This document shows positions 4,230 through 29,871 of a stretch of 40,862 nt of DNA, one piece after another. The stretch is from NCBI GenBank assembly GCA_945870175.1, contig CAMBRJ010000002.1, positions 1 through 40,862 of the forward strand, read 5' to 3'. The DNA comes from Gemmatimonas phototrophica (GTDB taxonomy: Bacteria > Gemmatimonadota > Gemmatimonadetes > Gemmatimonadales > Gemmatimonadaceae). The translations under genes were made by a program, and so were the position numbers. Under the pieces are notes generated by a model. It worked only from the letters and a program-made list of their open reading frames with translations, was not told the DNA's origin and searched no databases. Numbering within the stretch: the first letter of the stretch is position 1; the number at the start of each line of letters is the position of its first letter.

Positions 4230-5813
4230 ATGACTCTCCTATCATCTGTCCGTCGCGCTGGCGTGCTCGGTGCGTTCATCGCTGCGCTGCCTGTTGGCGC
4301 AGCCTTGCCGGCGCAAGGCGCGGTGGACGTGCTCATCACGGGTGCGATGGTGTACGACGGCACCGGCGCCGCAGGACGCATCACGAACGTCGGCATTCGC
4401 GGCGACCGCATTGCGTTCGTCGGTGCGATCCCGAGCGGCACCACGGCCGCGCGTCGCATCGATGCCACCGGGCTGATCGTGTCGCCGGGGTTTATTGATC
4501 CGCACACCCACGCGTATGGAGGGCTGCCGCGCTTGAATTCGGAGCGCCGCTTGAGTGCGTCCTCCTTGATGCAGGGCGTCACGACGGTCACGATCGGCCC
4601 CGACGGAAGCGGACCGTTCGATGTGAGGCGCGTGCTCGACGAATCCGAGAAGCTGGGGCTTGGCACCAACGCCTATGCCACCGTCGGCTTCGGCACGGTG
4701 CGCGCCCACGTGATGGGCGCGTCGTCGTCGCCGGCCACGACGGTGCAGATCGATTCCATGCGCGCGCTCATCACGAAGGCCATGCAGGAGGGCGCGCTCG
4801 GCGTGGGCTCAGGCTTGTTCTACGCGCCGCAAAGCTACGCCAGCACCGACGAAGCGATCGCCGTGATCTCGGCCGCGAAACCGTTCGGCGGCGTGTACGA
4901 CACGCATCAGCGCGACGAGTCGAGTTACACGATTGGGTTGTTGGCGTCGGTACGCGAAACGATTCGTATCGGCTGTGAATCGGGTCTCACGACGAACGTG
5001 GGACACATCAAGACGCTCGGTGTGGATGTGTGGGGCAAGGCCGACAGCGTGTTGGGCATCATGCGTGCGGCGCGCGCCAGGGGATGCATGGTCACGGCCG
5101 ATCAGTATCCATGGACCGCGAGTGGAACAGGATTGAGTGCGGCGTTGGTGCCGCGCTGGGCGCAGGCCGGCGGCAACGACTCGCTCAAGCTGCGCATTGC
5201 CGATGCCGCAGTGCGGGAGAAGATGCTGGTGGAAATGCGCGACAACCTGCGTCGTCGTGGTGGCGACAGCACGCTGTTGCTCACTGGTGGCAGTGCCGCC
5301 GCGACGTCGTATATCGGCAAGACACTCAAGCAGGCGGCGACCGAGCGGAACATGCCGGCGGTGGAGACGGCGCTGGCGATGATCAACGAGGGGCTCGACA
5401 TGAGCGTGGCGTCGTTCAACATGACCGAGGCCGACCTCGAAACGTTCATGAAGGATCCGTACGTGATGACGAGCTCCGACGGGTCGGACGGACACCCACG
5501 CCTGTATGGCACCTACCCGCGCAAGATCCGTCGGTACGTGCTCGACAAGCCGGTGATCACGATGGAGCGGATGGTGCGCGCGTCGTCGGGGCAGGTGGCT
5601 GAGACGTATCGCATGGTCGATCGTGGCGTGCTGCGCGCCGGTGCGTTCGCCGATGTGATCGTGTTCGATCCCAAGACCATCCGCGACGACGCGACCTATG
5701 TGGAGCCGAAACGGCTCTCGACTGGGATGGTGTGGGTGTTCGTGAACGGACAGGCGGCGGTGCAGGAGCGGAAGATGACGAACGTGTTCGCGGGGCGCGC
5801 GCTGCGTCGCTAG
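4230..5813 (+). CDS. Secreted amidohydrolase, N-acyl-D-amino-acid deacylase (D-aminoacylase) family
   Basis: Start trimmed to MTLLSSVRRAGVLGAFIAALPVGAALPAQG (signal peptide); VDVLITGAMVYDGTG...VSPGFIDPHTHAYGG, TSSDGSDGHPRLYGTYPRKIRRYV, FADVIVFDPKTI. Confidence 0.9.
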   Translation: MTLLSSVRRAGVLGAFIAALPVGAALPAQGAVDVLITGAMVYDGTGAAGRITNVGIRGDRIAFVGAIPSGTTAARRIDATGLIVSPGFIDPHTHAYGGLPRLNSERRLSASSLMQGVTTVTIGPDGSGPFDVRRVLDESEKLGLGTNAYATVGFGTVRAHVMGASSSPATTVQIDSMRALITKAMQEGALGVGSGLFYAPQSYASTDEAIAVISAAKPFGGVYDTHQRDESSYTIGLLASVRETIRIGCESGLTTNVGHIKTLGVDVWGKADSVLGIMRAARARGCMVTADQYPWTASGTGLSAALVPRWAQAGGNDSLKLRIADAAVREKMLVEMRDNLRRRGGDSTLLLTGGSAAATSYIGKTLKQAATERNMPAVETALAMINEGLDMSVASFNMTEADLETFMKDPYVMTSSDGSDGHPRLYGTYPRKIRRYVLDKPVITMERMVRASSGQVAETYRMVDRGVLRAGAFADVIVFDPKTIRDDATYVEPKRLSTGMVWVFVNGQAAVQERKMTNVFAGRALRR

Positions 5814-5821
5814 CGGTTGCC

Positions 5822-5920
5822 GAACTGATCACGCGGAGACGCAGAGGGCGCAGAGCTCGCAGAGGAAAAGTTCTCTCTGCGTTCTCTGCGCCCTCTCGGT
5901 TTTCTCTGCGTGATCAGTTC
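5822..5920. repeat. Intergenic long imperfect inverted repeat H2 (CGCAGAG-word family); may also act as a bidirectional terminator
   Basis: Perfect 13-bp outer stem GAACTGATCACGC/GCGTGATCAGTTC. Inner arm of 9-nt words ACGCAGAGG GCGCAGAGC TCGCAGAGG. Lies between convergent genes. Confidence 0.85.
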
Positions 5921-5942
5921 AGCGATCCGTCAGCAACACGCG

Positions 5943-6104
5943 CTACCCGCCGTAGTGCTTCCCCATCTTCCGCCCGTAATACCCACCCACCGCCGTGAGC
6001 ACGATGCTCACCACGAACGCGGTGAACATGCCGAACGGTTCGCCGGCGGCCCAGCCAGCGTATCCACCGATCGTGGCGCCGACAACGGCCAGCAGACGTG
6101 TCAT
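5943..6104 (-). CDS. Small (53 aa) glycine-rich membrane protein, hypothetical
   Basis: Not in the supplied ORF track (below its length limit). Manual translation MTRLLAVVGATIGGYAGWAAGEPFGMFTAFVVSIVLTAVGGYYGRKMGKHYGG*; 10 nt downstream of transketolase on the same strand; two hydrophobic segments with GxxxG spacing. Confidence 0.75.
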   Translation of the reverse strand: MTRLLAVVGATIGGYAGWAAGEPFGMFTAFVVSIVLTAVGGYYGRKMGKHYGG

Positions 6105-12530: not shown

Positions 12531-15092
12531 GTGCGAGACACCACGACTCTTCCGATCGACGAGATCATTCCGTCGCTGCGCGCGGCGCTGACGGCGCGCA
12601 CGGTCGCGGTGCTGGAGGCGCCACCCGGTGCGGGAAAGACCACACGCGTGCCGCTCGCGCTCGTGAACGAGCCGTGGCTGGCGGGCGCGAAGGTGGTGAT
12701 GCTCGAGCCGCGACGACTCGCCGCGCGCGCGGCGGCGTCGTACATGGCGTCGACGATCGGCGAGGACGTGGGGCAGACGGTGGGGTACCGCGTGCGCGGC
12801 GAGTCGCGCATCTCGAAGCAGACGCGTATCGAGGTAGTGACCGAAGGCGTGCTGGCGCGCATGCTGAGCAGCGATGCGGCGCTCGAGGATATCGGGCTCG
12901 TGATCTTCGACGAATTTCACGAACGGTCGCTGCACGCCGACCTCGGGTTGGCACTGGTGCTCGAAACACAGCGCCATCTGCGTGAGAAGCTGCGCGTGCT
13001 GGTGATGTCGGCCACGCTCGACGGCGTCGCGGTGTCGGCGTTGCTGGCCGATGCGCGTGGTCCGGCGCCGGTGCTGCGCAGCGAGGGGCGCATGTTTCCC
13101 ATCGAGACGCACTATCGCGCGCCGCGTCGTGATGAGCGGGTGGAGGCGACGACGGCGCGGGTGATTCGTGAGGCACTCGACGCCACCGAAGGCGATGTGC
13201 TGGTGTTCCTGCCCGGCGCTGGTGAACAGCGCCGAGTGGCGGAACGTCTCACGGGCGACACGATGACTGGCGTACGCGTGCACACGCTGCATGGCAGCAT
13301 GCCGTTGGCCGAGCAGGATGCGGCGCTGGCACCGGCGCGGGTGGGTACGCGGAAGGTGGTGCTCAGTACGAGTGTCGCCGAGACCAGCCTGACGGTGGCG
13401 GGCGTGCGTGTGGTGATCGACTGCGGCTTGTCACGCGTGCCGCGCTACGATGCCTCGGCGGGGCTGACGCGATTGCACACGGTGCGGGTGAGTCGGGCGT
13501 CGGCCGATCAGCGTCGTGGTCGTGCGGGGCGTACGGCGCCCGGCGTGAGCTACCGGCTGTGGGATCAACACGAGGACCATACGCTGCTGCCGAGCACGCG
13601 TCCGGAAATTGTGGACGCGGATTTGTCGTCGTTGGCGTTGGAACTGGCCGACGCCGGCATCAGCGATCCCACCACACTGCGGTGGCTGGATGTGCCGCGG
13701 GCCGGTGCGTTTGCGCAGGCGCGGGCGCTGTTGGCGCAGCTCGGTGCGCTCGACGACGCGGGGCGTATCACGCCCCATGGCCGTCGCATGGCGGCGCTGC
13801 CGTTACAGCCACGGTTGGCGCACCTGGCGATCACCGCGGCGGCGCGTGGTGCCTTGCCGCTCGGTGCCGCGATCGCGGCGTTGCTGGAGGAGCGCGACAT
13901 CGTGCGCTACGACGGGTTGCCGCCGCAGTCGGACATGCGATTGCGTACGGAGCTGCTGCGACGCGATGGAGCGTCGGGCGCGGTGGGGGTGGCGGTGGAT
14001 CGCGATGGCGTGCGGCGCGTGCGACAGACGGCCGACGATCTCGCACGCCGCGCGGCGGGCGGGGGATCGGGTTCGTCGTCGCGCGCCTCATCGCCGGAAT
14101 TGTGGGATGATGCCGACACGGGCTCGTTGCTCGCGCTGGCGTATCCCGATCGCGTGGCGCAGCGACGCAGTGGTGCTGAGCCGCGGTACCTGCTGCGCAA
14201 CGGCAGCGGGGCGGTGTTGGCGAAACACGATGCGCTGCACGACGCGCCCTATCTGGCCATCGCGGATCTTGAGGGCACGTCGCCCGAAGCCCGCATCGTG
14301 CGCGCGGCGCCGATCACGCTGGAGGAACTGCGCGAGGATTTCGGCGCGCAGTTCGTGCGGGTGCAACTGGTGGAGTGGAATGAGCGCACCAAGGCCGTAC
14401 GTGCGCGCAAGCGTACGATGCTGGGTGCGCTCGTGATTGAAGAAGTGATGTGGTCCGACGCCGATCCCGAGGTCGTGTTGCAGACCGTGCTGGAGGCGAT
14501 TCGTGCCCAGCTCGCTCGCGGTGGGATCGAGGCGTTGCCGTTTTCACAGGCGGCGTTGCGATTGCGTGAACGGATGGCGTTCGTGCATGCGCACGATGAG
14601 AGTTGGCCGGATGTATCGGTGGCCGCCCTGTCGGCGTCGCTGGCGGAGTGGGCGGGCCCGTATCTCGACGGCGTGCGCACGTGGGCGCAGCTGGCGTCGG
14701 TGGATTGGCACGACGCGCTGCAGTCGCTGATGCCGTGGTCGCAGCGGTCGGCGCTGGAGCGATTGGCACCGACGCATCTGGAGGTGCCGAGTGGGTCGCG
14801 GATTGCGCTGGACTACAGTGAGGCGACGGCGCCGGTGCTGGCGGTGAAGCTGCAGGAAGTGTTCGGGTGGAGCACGACGCCGATGGTGATGGATGGGCGT
14901 GTGTCGCTCACGCTGCAGCTGCTGTCACCGGCGCAGCGGCCGGTGCAGGTGACGCGCGACCTCGCGGGATTCTGGCGCAGCTCGTACTTCGAGGTGCGCA
15001 AGGAGCTACGCGGGCGGTATCCGCGGCACCCGTGGCCGGAGGATCCGCTGACGGCGGAGGCGACGAGGCGGGCGAAGCCGCGCGGGACGTAA
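12531..15092 (+). CDS. hrpB: ATP-dependent helicase HrpB
   Basis: 853 aa, GTG start; EAPPGAGKTTRVPLAL, VIFDEFHERSLHADLGLAL, STSVAETSLTVAGVRVVID, QRRGRAGRTAPGVSYRLW, C-terminal HrpB domain YPRHPWPEDP. Confidence 0.97.
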   Translation: MRDTTTLPIDEIIPSLRAALTARTVAVLEAPPGAGKTTRVPLALVNEPWLAGAKVVMLEPRRLAARAAASYMASTIGEDVGQTVGYRVRGESRISKQTRIEVVTEGVLARMLSSDAALEDIGLVIFDEFHERSLHADLGLALVLETQRHLREKLRVLVMSATLDGVAVSALLADARGPAPVLRSEGRMFPIETHYRAPRRDERVEATTARVIREALDATEGDVLVFLPGAGEQRRVAERLTGDTMTGVRVHTLHGSMPLAEQDAALAPARVGTRKVVLSTSVAETSLTVAGVRVVIDCGLSRVPRYDASAGLTRLHTVRVSRASADQRRGRAGRTAPGVSYRLWDQHEDHTLLPSTRPEIVDADLSSLALELADAGISDPTTLRWLDVPRAGAFAQARALLAQLGALDDAGRITPHGRRMAALPLQPRLAHLAITAAARGALPLGAAIAALLEERDIVRYDGLPPQSDMRLRTELLRRDGASGAVGVAVDRDGVRRVRQTADDLARRAAGGGSGSSSRASSPELWDDADTGSLLALAYPDRVAQRRSGAEPRYLLRNGSGAVLAKHDALHDAPYLAIADLEGTSPEARIVRAAPITLEELREDFGAQFVRVQLVEWNERTKAVRARKRTMLGALVIEEVMWSDADPEVVLQTVLEAIRAQLARGGIEALPFSQAALRLRERMAFVHAHDESWPDVSVAALSASLAEWAGPYLDGVRTWAQLASVDWHDALQSLMPWSQRSALERLAPTHLEVPSGSRIALDYSEATAPVLAVKLQEVFGWSTTPMVMDGRVSLTLQLLSPAQRPVQVTRDLAGFWRSSYFEVRKELRGRYPRHPWPEDPLTAEATRRAKPRGT

Positions 15093-15099
15093 ACAACAG

Positions 15100-15199
15100 A
15101 AAACAGCTTGACCGCGGATTGGCACGAATGTTCGCGGATGAACAACAACAGCACATGATCCGTGTCGTTGTCCGTGTCGATTCGCGGTCATGCTGTTTT
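15100..15199. repeat. Intergenic long imperfect inverted repeat H3 (ACGGAT/CGCGGAT-word family)
   Basis: Left arm AAAACAGCTTGACCGCGGATTGGCACGAATGTTCGCGGAT; reverse complement of right arm AAAACAGCATGACCGCGAATCGACACGGACAACGACACGGAT; about 10-nt words; 8 nt after the hrpB stop. Confidence 0.8.
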
Positions 15200-15383
15200 G
15201 GTTCGCCTGAACAGACAGCGCTACCACGCGCCGGCATGCGTATTCGCCAATGAAACGCAATAGTAAATCGAGTCAGTGCGGACGTAGGGAGTCGTGCGTT
15301 GGAAAGATGGTGGCGGCGCGTTTGTGGTGAGTACGCTCGGTGGCAGTCGCGCCAAGGTGTGCGTATCTCAACCAGGAGCAATC

Positions 15384-15788
15384 ATGAGCGACGCACCGCT
15401 GCAAACACTGTTGCACCAAGAGCTCAGCAGCCAAATCATCCGCGCGTTCTATGAGGTGTATAACGCCCTCATGCGAGGCCTGCATGAAGTGTGCTACCAA
15501 AATGCGCTGCACGTCGAACTGCAGTTGCGCGGAATCCCCGTCGAACAGGAGGTCCCCTTTGCCGTGGTCTACAAGGGGCACATCATTGGGAAATCCCGCG
15601 TCGATCTGCTCGTCGACCGGAAGGTCATCGTCGAATGCAAGACCGCCAACACCTTGCACGCGCAGCATGAAGCGCAGATGCTGCACTACCTCAAAGCCAC
15701 CAACACCGAGCTTGGCCTGCTGATGTACTTCGGCTCGAAGCCACTGTTCCGGCGGTTCGTGCACACCAGCGACGTGACGGGGCCGTGA
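15384..15788 (+). CDS. GxxExxY protein (PDDEXK_3 family, PD-(D/E)XK nuclease-like)
   Basis: Start trimmed to MSDAPLQTLLHQEL (AGGAG upstream); RGLHEVCYQNAL = GxxExxY motif; RVDLLVDRKVIVECKT resembles the D...ExK nuclease signature. Confidence 0.88.
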   Translation: MSDAPLQTLLHQELSSQIIRAFYEVYNALMRGLHEVCYQNALHVELQLRGIPVEQEVPFAVVYKGHIIGKSRVDLLVDRKVIVECKTANTLHAQHEAQMLHYLKATNTELGLLMYFGSKPLFRRFVHTSDVTGP

Positions 15789-15836
15789 GTCGGTCGCGTC
15801 GTGGGCCAACGATGCGCCCCCAACTATCTTTTCGTG

Positions 15837-16835
15837 ATGTCTGCTGTGCGATGGCTCGTGACTGCCCTGTCGTTCGCCGCCATGATGGGGGTGTCGGCCT
15901 GGGTGGTCGCCTCTCATTGGCCGGCGGGGGGCATGCCGTGGCTGGCGTGGCCGGTGCACGCAGCGGCGTTGGCCACGGTAACGGCCGAGATCATCACCCG
16001 AGCGCTCAAGATCCAAGCGTCGGCGCGGGCGTGCGGCATTCCGCTGCGCTTCGGGACCGCGGTGCGGGTCTGCCTGGCCGGTGATTTCGCGGCGGCCATC
16101 ACGCCGGCCCGTTCAGGGGCGGAGCCGTCGCGCTTTTTGGTGCTGGCGGAAAGTGGCACCGGACCGGCGGGGCGCGTGCTGATTCTCTTCCTCGAGCTGT
16201 TTCTCGAGATGTGGTCGCTGGTGCTGGTGTGCACGGTTCTGGCGGTCCTCTTCGCCGGGCGTGGCGCCTCGGTGGCCGGACTGCTCAGTCTCGTGGGCGG
16301 CTACAGCGGCGTCGTGCTGGGCGTCGGTGCGGCGGGGGTAATCCTGTCCAAACGGAATGCCCACGGGCCGCCGCCCGTCTGGGCTCGGCGGGTGGGACTG
16401 CACGCCGGTCGCTGGCGCGTGGTGCAGCGTACGCTGCGGGCGCTGCGGGGGTCGGTGCAGTCGCTGCGGCGAGCCGATCCGGCGCTGATGCTGTTGGCCT
16501 TCGGGGGCTCGGTGCTGCACGTGCTGTTCAAGGTGGCCACGCTGCCCATACTGGTGTTTTTGGGCGACCCGTCGTTCCCGCGCACCATGGACACGCTGGC
16601 CCCGCTGGTGCTCTGGCCTCTGGCGCTCTTTTACGGCGGGGTGGTGGTGCCGGCGCCCGGCGGGGGTGGCTTTATCGAAGGCGCCTTCGCCGCCACGCTC
16701 GGTTCGGCGATTCCGGCGGGTATCTTTGCCGCATCGCTGCTCTGGTGGCGGTTCTACACGTTCTATCTGTATTTCCTCGTTGGTGGGGCGGCGGCGGGTG
16801 ATGCCGCCCTGCGTGCCCTGCGTCGTCCCAGCTGA
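15837..16835 (+). CDS. Lysylphosphatidylglycerol synthase transmembrane-like (YbhN/UPF0104) membrane protein
   Basis: MSAVRWLVTALSFAAMMG...; multiple TM segments, GDFAAAITPARSGAEPSRFLVLAE, PAPGGGGFIEGAFAATLG. Confidence 0.8.
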   Translation: MSAVRWLVTALSFAAMMGVSAWVVASHWPAGGMPWLAWPVHAAALATVTAEIITRALKIQASARACGIPLRFGTAVRVCLAGDFAAAITPARSGAEPSRFLVLAESGTGPAGRVLILFLELFLEMWSLVLVCTVLAVLFAGRGASVAGLLSLVGGYSGVVLGVGAAGVILSKRNAHGPPPVWARRVGLHAGRWRVVQRTLRALRGSVQSLRRADPALMLLAFGGSVLHVLFKVATLPILVFLGDPSFPRTMDTLAPLVLWPLALFYGGVVVPAPGGGGFIEGAFAATLGSAIPAGIFAASLLWWRFYTFYLYFLVGGAAAGDAALRALRRPS

Positions 16836-29752: not shown

Positions 29753-29871
29753 AGCAACAGCGGGAACACGGATCGAACCGATCGCGCCGATGCCACCGAT
29801 AAGCCACAACGCGCGGTTTGCTTATCGGTGCGATCTGCGTCATCCGTCAAATCCGTGTTCCAGTCGTTGCT
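29753..29871. repeat. Intergenic long imperfect inverted repeat H5 (ACGGAT-word family, same as H1)
   Basis: Core arms 29763-29804 and 29820-29861, 33 of 42 positions complementary, 15-nt loop. Each arm = GG + four 9-nt words ending GAT + AAGC. Confidence 0.88.

Follow-up and report, generated by a model that had tools for sequence, protein, structure and literature searches.

In a genome of Gemmatimonas phototrophica, a hairpin built from repeats of a short word lies just before a gene for a GxxExxY protein, which raises the question of whether the hairpin and the gene belong together, as REP sequences and RAYT transposases do. Such a pairing was put forward in an initial annotation of the window (the whole stretch of 40,862 nucleotides that was analyzed), together with the idea that GxxExxY proteins recognize, process, or spread these hairpins. 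In the open-access literature, GxxExxY (in passing) and PF13366 are mentioned and the word string appears nowhere; we found neither a function for GxxExxY nor a description of these hairpins there. The answer given here is a proposed function for proteins whose annotation is in most cases limited to their motif.

The locus in the window and its predicted nuclease

The hairpin (H3) spans positions 15100–15199 (no strand assigned) and contains the words CGCGGAT, CACGAAT, and CGCGGAT, which are imperfect repeats of CRCGRAT. Its outer stem is formed by AAAACAGC/GCTGTTTT and continues into GACCGCG...CGCGGTC. Folded as DNA, it reaches −32.3 kcal/mol, compared with an average of −17.9 for shuffled sequences (z −5.2), and none of the 200 shuffles folded as well. 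To its left lies the hrpB helicase gene (12531–15092, + strand; identified by a TIGR01970 profile match and synteny), whose stop codon ends at 15092, thus leaving a gap of 7 nt. To its right, a leader (15200–15383, + strand), with AGGAG at 15372 and parts that are conserved in gene-bearing congeners (e.g., GTGAGTACGCTCGGTGGCAGT), runs up to the ATG of the GxxExxY gene at 15384, 184 nt downstream of H3. The right neighbor of the site is a flippase-like (LPG_synthase_TM) gene (15801–16835, + strand; profile match and synteny). H3 is hence a real hairpin, located as first annotated, and the GxxExxY gene that follows it is intact. This GxxExxY copy has a compact hairpin upstream only and no downstream arm.

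The GxxExxY gene itself (15384–15788, + strand) encodes a protein of 134 amino acids, in which a nuclease-like signature had been noticed earlier, and the profile matches, residues, and predicted fold all agree with that reading. The protein matches TIGR04256 (GxxExxY; E 1.3e-36, 125.5 bits with a curated cut-off of 35) as well as PF13366 (PDDEXK_3; E 4.4e-36, 124.2 bits with a curated cut-off of 22), and it retains those residues that are invariant or nearly so among its relatives, namely G32, E35, D74, E84, K86, Q98, and Y102. In an alignment of 30 sequences (A1), E35, D74, E84, K86, and Y102 are invariant, and Q98 of the QxxxY motif (Q98xxxY102 in the window protein) is near-invariant. The predicted catalytic core (15603–15641, + strand) comprises D74 (15603–15605) and the E84-x-K86 pair (E84 at 15633–15635 and K86 at 15639–15641). 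For a structure model built from 30 relatives (pLDDT 92.8), the closest solved fold is Sulfolobus Cas4 SSO0001 (Foldseek E 5e-5, Z 10.1), and further PDB matches include restriction enzymes, lambda exonuclease, LHK-Exo, and Hjc. Judged by this model, GxxExxY is predicted to be a single-domain PD-(D/E)XK protein that most resembles the Cas4/RecB type, with both the core fold and the D...ExK...QxxxY motif of the RecB/Cas4-like group.

The predicted fold and the motif order are shared with Cas4/RecB-family and lambda-type exonucleases, and there are differences as well. Cas4 has Fe-S cysteines, whereas GxxExxY is a lone domain of 110–130 residues with no conserved cysteine column in A1, and, unlike the Cas4 and lambda-type nucleases, it is found outside a CRISPR or phage recombination context. 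The Rpn proteins (YhgA-like, transposase_31) are also PD-(D/E)XK nucleases; they are tied to RecA-independent recombination and have little, if any, sequence specificity (PMC5350276). Rpn and GxxExxY are nevertheless separate families.

The gene usually lies within a large hairpin, and the word follows the protein

The surroundings of other GxxExxY genes were compared in a multi-phylum set of 80 loci, taken from a scan of 84,980 species genomes and picked on protein similarity alone. An array of at least three words lies within 400 bp of the gene in 72 of these 80 loci. In most of the array-bearing loci, the upstream array is on the + strand and the downstream array on the − strand, and these inverted arrays on either side place the GxxExxY gene in the loop of one large hairpin. 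Array density in the 80 loci amounts to 5.05 per kb in the first 150 bp upstream and 5.73 per kb downstream, vs 0.02–0.18 per kb at a distance of 500–8000 bp. Compact hairpins are less common in this set (9 of the 80 loci within 500 bp).

The same picture emerges from a comparison with the other genes of these loci, where arrays lie within 200 bp of 70/79 GxxExxY genes vs 37/546 other ORFs (OR 107, p 1e-54). The two arms also match each other: the upstream arm and the reverse-complemented downstream arm score a mean of 22.3 within their own locus, compared with 11.5 for arms of other loci and 8.8 at 1 kb away. Arm scores of at least 20 are reached by 48/79 GxxExxY genes and by only 1/546 other ORFs, so that inverted repeats at both gene ends are a frequent property of these genes, the window copy being an exception. 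The enrichment of hairpins near GxxExxY genes relative to other genes, which had been predicted for the pairing, is thus evident (5–6 arrays per kb within 150 bp).

A typical element measures approximately 494 bp between its outer ends and has three words per arm, and the downstream arm follows the GxxExxY stop codon at a median distance of 6 nt. Word spacings are mostly 8 and 9 nt and do not support a helical word period (10.5 bp). Arms were not detectable in 32 of 163 GxxExxY loci. A complete three-word element is present in a cultured gut bacterium, Bacteroides finegoldii (L322; NZ_OY725952.1, 1430–1891), where it holds the GxxExxY protein WP_032839887.1 and is flanked by radA and the gene of a FAD-dependent protein. 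At two further loci (L009 and L012), beside two closely related GxxExxY proteins, the word orientation is inside out, with CTCCGTG in the left arm.

The arms also extend into the reading frame. Good flanking arms are present at 93 loci; 53 of these leave the GxxExxY frame open across the upstream arm, and 15 have an ATG ahead of this arm, giving N-termini such as MNHRDTETQRD and MVNHEGHKEHEG. According to the initial annotation, GxxExxY proteins of other environmental genomes often have tails resembling translated word repeats, and these NHRDTETQ-type N-termini agree with that statement.

Not only the presence of arms but also their word depends on the protein: the word tracks the GxxExxY protein clade, not the host genome. 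For the word comparison, another 49 loci from 50 genomes were added. The words CRCGGAT and CRCAGAT go with YN, GSGFLEKVYENAL, and related proteins, CGCCAAG goes with GPGF(P/Y)ESVYEEAL proteins (from Pseudomonadota and Planctomycetota), and GACAGGAT is the word of a protein pair from Gemmatimonadota and Verrucomicrobiota. Over the 131 armed loci, protein identity predicts arm similarity in a partial Mantel test with GC removed (r 0.42, reached in 0/999 permutations), and the same holds for different-phylum pairs alone (partial Mantel r 0.40, 0/999, null maximum 0.15). On the protein tree, the word-ending label changes 5 times vs 14–17 times with shuffled labels; since this tree is based on few columns and has many unresolved forks, the Mantel test is the stronger evidence.

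Two other sources of the correlation were considered and rejected. Base composition does not account for it, as the correlation survives the removal of GC. Host relatedness does not either, given the result for different-phylum pairs and the unlike words within one genome: arm similarity is 0.10 for same-genome pairs below 50% identity vs 0.30 for different-phylum pairs of at least 60% identity. Such co-variation of word and protein would be expected of a protein that reads the word, and we strongly infer that GxxExxY recognizes the repeated word of its arms.

Dispersed hairpins within and between genomes

Five GxxExxY genes are present in the source genome, which comprises 3.16 Mb on 464 contigs and is 70% complete. 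Four of them lie no more than about 350 bp from a long word-built hairpin, with a different word in each case, and the fifth is truncated by a contig end. Besides H3, the window contains solo hairpins (no strand assigned) that are related to hairpins at these other gene copies. H1 (5799–5943; score 53, 0/200 shuffles) is built from CGCAGAG words and is related to the one next to GxxExxY copy L003. A solo hairpin with CACGGAT words (1878–1997; score 58, 0/200 shuffles) is a relative of the hairpin beside copy L002, and H5 (29753–29871; score 45, 0/200 shuffles), a member of the same family, is related to it as well. The L002 and L003 hairpins sit on other contigs of the source genome, and the dispersed hairpins thus look like copies of the gene-linked ones.

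Differences among congeners can be seen at two sites of the window. H5 is missing from the orthologous site in six congeners. At the hrpB–flippase site, the GxxExxY gene and the hairpins are absent from four loci (L089, L090, L110, and L111), and in L110 and L111 the flippase gene directly follows hrpB. In the gene-bearing congeners, the H3 hairpin unit (approximately 154 bp) is present as a single copy in L085, L086, and L093, as two copies in L091, as three in L087, and as four in L088. An apparent remnant of the left end of the hairpin in L090 suggests a loss at that locus. Empty sites were thus found for both H5 and the hrpB site; the nearest ones belong to other species, whose spacers are too diverged to place the exact boundaries or a target-site duplication. 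The spacer of L089 and L090 holds another palindrome, GTTCAAGGGGTCAGAGTCGTTGAAC, which resembles the GGGGTCAGAGTC hairpins beside the RAYT gene of L080, and the hrpB–flippase spacer seems to receive different repeat families.

At the level of whole genomes, the family was found in 31–57% of the sampled genomes of two groups, often in multiple copies: PF13366 is present in 38/121 genomes of the window's phylum and GxxExxY in 81/141 genomes of the class of G164. In the window's phylum, where arrays were counted with two exact three-word patterns, the count per genome is 24.7 where GxxExxY is present and 0.53 where it is missing (47-fold); a reversed control pattern is rarer (2.4 vs 0.35). In the class of G164, the counts are 11.1 vs 2.5 (4.5-fold; the latter value falls to 0.5 if one outlier is left out). 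The p-values (4e-9 in the window's phylum and 2e-10, with a Fisher OR of 16, in the class of G164) overstate independence, since the counted species are related. More arrays therefore accompany the gene in two independent groups, as was to be expected from the proposed link between hairpin number and GxxExxY presence.

Within 20-kb stretches of genomes from the window's phylum, word arrays cluster around GxxExxY, at distances of up to 300 bp. They can also be far more numerous than the gene. In G004, a single GxxExxY gene coexists with three-word arrays that number 61 in forward and 61 in reverse orientation; its arrays occur on both strands at these sites, and a strand bias was thus rejected. 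At L049 (G065), eight related hairpins lie within 20 kb, with a lone GxxExxY gene between two of them. In G048, the reversed control pattern is found 54 times and the real pattern 56 times, and the reversed copies are perhaps another internally repetitive family.

The association has exceptions on both sides. None of the tested word patterns was found in 13 of the 38 GxxExxY genomes of the window's phylum, where other words occur. Hairpin-rich genomes without the gene, named in the initial annotation as evidence against a pairing, do exist in small number. The GxxExxY gene was not detected in G027, G047, G049, and G084 (6–13 arrays each), G248 has 20 arrays and no convincing GxxExxY gene, and G241 has 119 pattern hits, which are genuine hairpins, with GxxExxY not detected in its 5.1-Mb assembly. 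Array-rich genomes of this kind are read most simply as carrying orphan hairpins, comparable to orphan REPs; the gene may instead be missing from the assembly. The G241 loci L328, L335, L337, and L339 show repeated TTTGACGCAGAGGCGCAGAG... hairpins and arrays.

The gene itself is distributed patchily, with 1–15 copies per genome. G016 and G066 contain many truncated GxxExxY fragments, often limited to the first 29–53 residues or to the last third, a pattern that decaying or repeatedly trimmed copies would leave. One GxxExxY query protein matched 8 of 72,556 plasmid records and had no match among phage records, and the spread is thus probably not plasmid-borne and occurs mainly within chromosomes.

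Candidate mechanism, known systems, and rival explanations

We consider it roughly two-thirds probable that GxxExxY is the dedicated nuclease of small palindromic selfish elements. A full element of about 500 bp would consist of an arm (about three 7-nt words, 1–3 nt apart), the GxxExxY gene, and the inverted arm, with CRCRGAG, CRCGGAT, CGCCAAG, and others as word types. In a variant element, as in the window, a compact hairpin would stand at one or both sides of the gene, and the dispersed solo hairpins would be gene-less, non-autonomous relatives. GxxExxY would most likely recognize the word, either on the duplex arm or on the hairpin or cruciform of single-stranded or supercoiled DNA, and would then nick or cut at the word. 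Repair or replication may subsequently copy the hairpin to new sites, which is the role that RAYT/TnpA_REP plays for REPs. DNA cleavage and transposition by GxxExxY are presumed here from its fold, its distribution, and the presence/absence differences.

Enrichment at both the gene and the genome level speaks for the REP/RAYT-type pairing that was originally proposed, with recognition, cleavage, and spreading as its presumptive steps, and the co-variation of word and protein clade carries the analogy beyond that first proposal. Among known systems, REP/REPIN sequences with their RAYT (TnpA_REP) transposases (REPtrons) come nearest in behavior. In both systems, high-copy dispersed palindromes coexist with one dedicated nuclease gene that is flanked by them, gene-less copies are dispersed, the recognition sequence co-varies with the enzyme (for TnpA_REP, the two co-evolve (PMC8266576)), and some genomes have orphan repeats. 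On the other hand, RAYT is a Y1/HUH enzyme, whereas GxxExxY belongs to the PD-(D/E)XK fold (PF13366), and a Y1/HUH transposase is no part of the GxxExxY system. REPs measure 20–40 bp, and most are tagged GTAG or CGTC (PMC3733652). Unlike REPs, the GxxExxY arms are 25–55 nt long, consist of a 7-nt word repeated about three times, and in most cases surround the gene. Insertion sequences and MITEs offer a second comparison, as they likewise have one gene between inverted repeats and short gene-less derivatives. Unlike insertion sequences, however, the GxxExxY element has no known transposase family and is only about 500 bp long, and its inverted repeats are internally repetitive, with words that differ between copies.

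With slightly more reserve, we also hold it likely that GxxExxY and the word hairpin constitute a widespread new class of prokaryotic selfish elements, in which a minimal PD-(D/E)XK nuclease reads a clade-specific 7-nt word in the arms of its own hairpin and spreads gene-bearing and gene-less hairpins within the genomes of many phyla by a mechanism unrelated to HUH chemistry. If true, this would account for a large class of dispersed hairpins in environmental genomes that so far lack an explanation, as well as for the 'NHRDTETQ'-type protein tails created by hairpins. The dozens of natural protein–word pairs make sequence recognition by a one-domain nuclease directly testable, and it is possibly programmable.

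Among the other explanations, the hairpins could be older than their association with the gene, with a word-specific, homing-endonuclease-like GxxExxY that would cut gene-less hairpins bearing its word and enter their loops as a new copy through recombination, but would create no hairpins. The gene does lie between two matching arms, a position in which a homing gene would interrupt its own site, and word specificity and the many gene-less hairpins per gene fit this explanation too. We regard it as unlikely, since it leaves unexplained why hairpins are rare in GxxExxY-free genomes, why some genes have complete hairpins lying outside them, on one side or on both, and why hairpin units have expanded beside the gene. 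A homing nuclease would share the recognition step with the dedicated nuclease of a selfish element and accounts less well for the rarity of hairpins without the gene.

It is less probable again that the hairpins act in RNA, be it as terminators, mRNA ends, or autoregulatory structures, with GxxExxY binding or cutting its own mRNA and the dispersed copies being co-opted regulators. The arms often overlap the translation start, the stop codon lies close to the downstream arm, and H3 begins just past the hrpB stop, all of which would suit such a role. However, the enzymes with homologous folds (Cas4, restriction enzymes, and Hjc) act on DNA, no Rfam match was found in the window, and neither copy numbers in the tens or hundreds nor the between-phyla co-variation of word and protein would follow from it.

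Even more doubtful is that the host keeps GxxExxY for genome maintenance, as a nuclease acting on extruded hairpins or cruciforms, while the hairpins spread otherwise (e.g., through replication slippage or another transposase). The fold similarity to Cas4, RecB, and Hjc and the orphan hairpins in a few gene-free genomes are compatible with it, but the patchy multi-copy distribution, the truncated copies, and the cross-phylum co-variation of word and clade are signs of a selfish pair, and several hairpin-bearing genomes lack RAYT.

Finally, it is very improbable that RAYT transposases spread these hairpins as REPs of the ordinary kind, with GxxExxY only incidentally close: REP-like palindromes do lie beside RAYT genes in the window's phylum, but word arrays were found at none of the 29 RAYT loci, RAYT presence does not predict word arrays there (p 0.8), and Y1_Tnp is absent from G000, G019, G039, G068, G074, and G112. 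RAYT as the driver was rejected on these grounds. In the source genome, no Y1 (RAYT) transposase (PF01797) was detected, nor was one found in five congeners holding 2–6 GxxExxY genes. Arrays of at least three words within 500 bp of the gene were found at 18/34 GxxExxY, 0/29 RAYT, and 0/30 S23/IVP loci of the window's phylum, and strong hairpins within the same distance at 20/34, 8/29, and 2/30, respectively. The hairpins at the RAYT loci are other REPs, e.g., GGGGTCAGAGTC.

The S23/IVP four-helix-bundle gene was likewise rejected as a fellow carrier, since none of these word arrays occur at its 30 loci. In Coxiella, the S23 ORF insert lies in helix 45 of the 23S rRNA (PMC4990558). The 23S rRNA intervening sequence with S23 resembles the GxxExxY element in being a small ORF in a stem-borne insert, although the S23 protein is unrelated to GxxExxY. 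S23 presence also tracks word arrays at the genome level, apparently mostly via co-occurrence with GxxExxY. At two of the 30 S23 loci (L205 and L213), a hairpin of other words (GGGACTC and GGGCAGGA) lies upstream of the S23/IVP gene.
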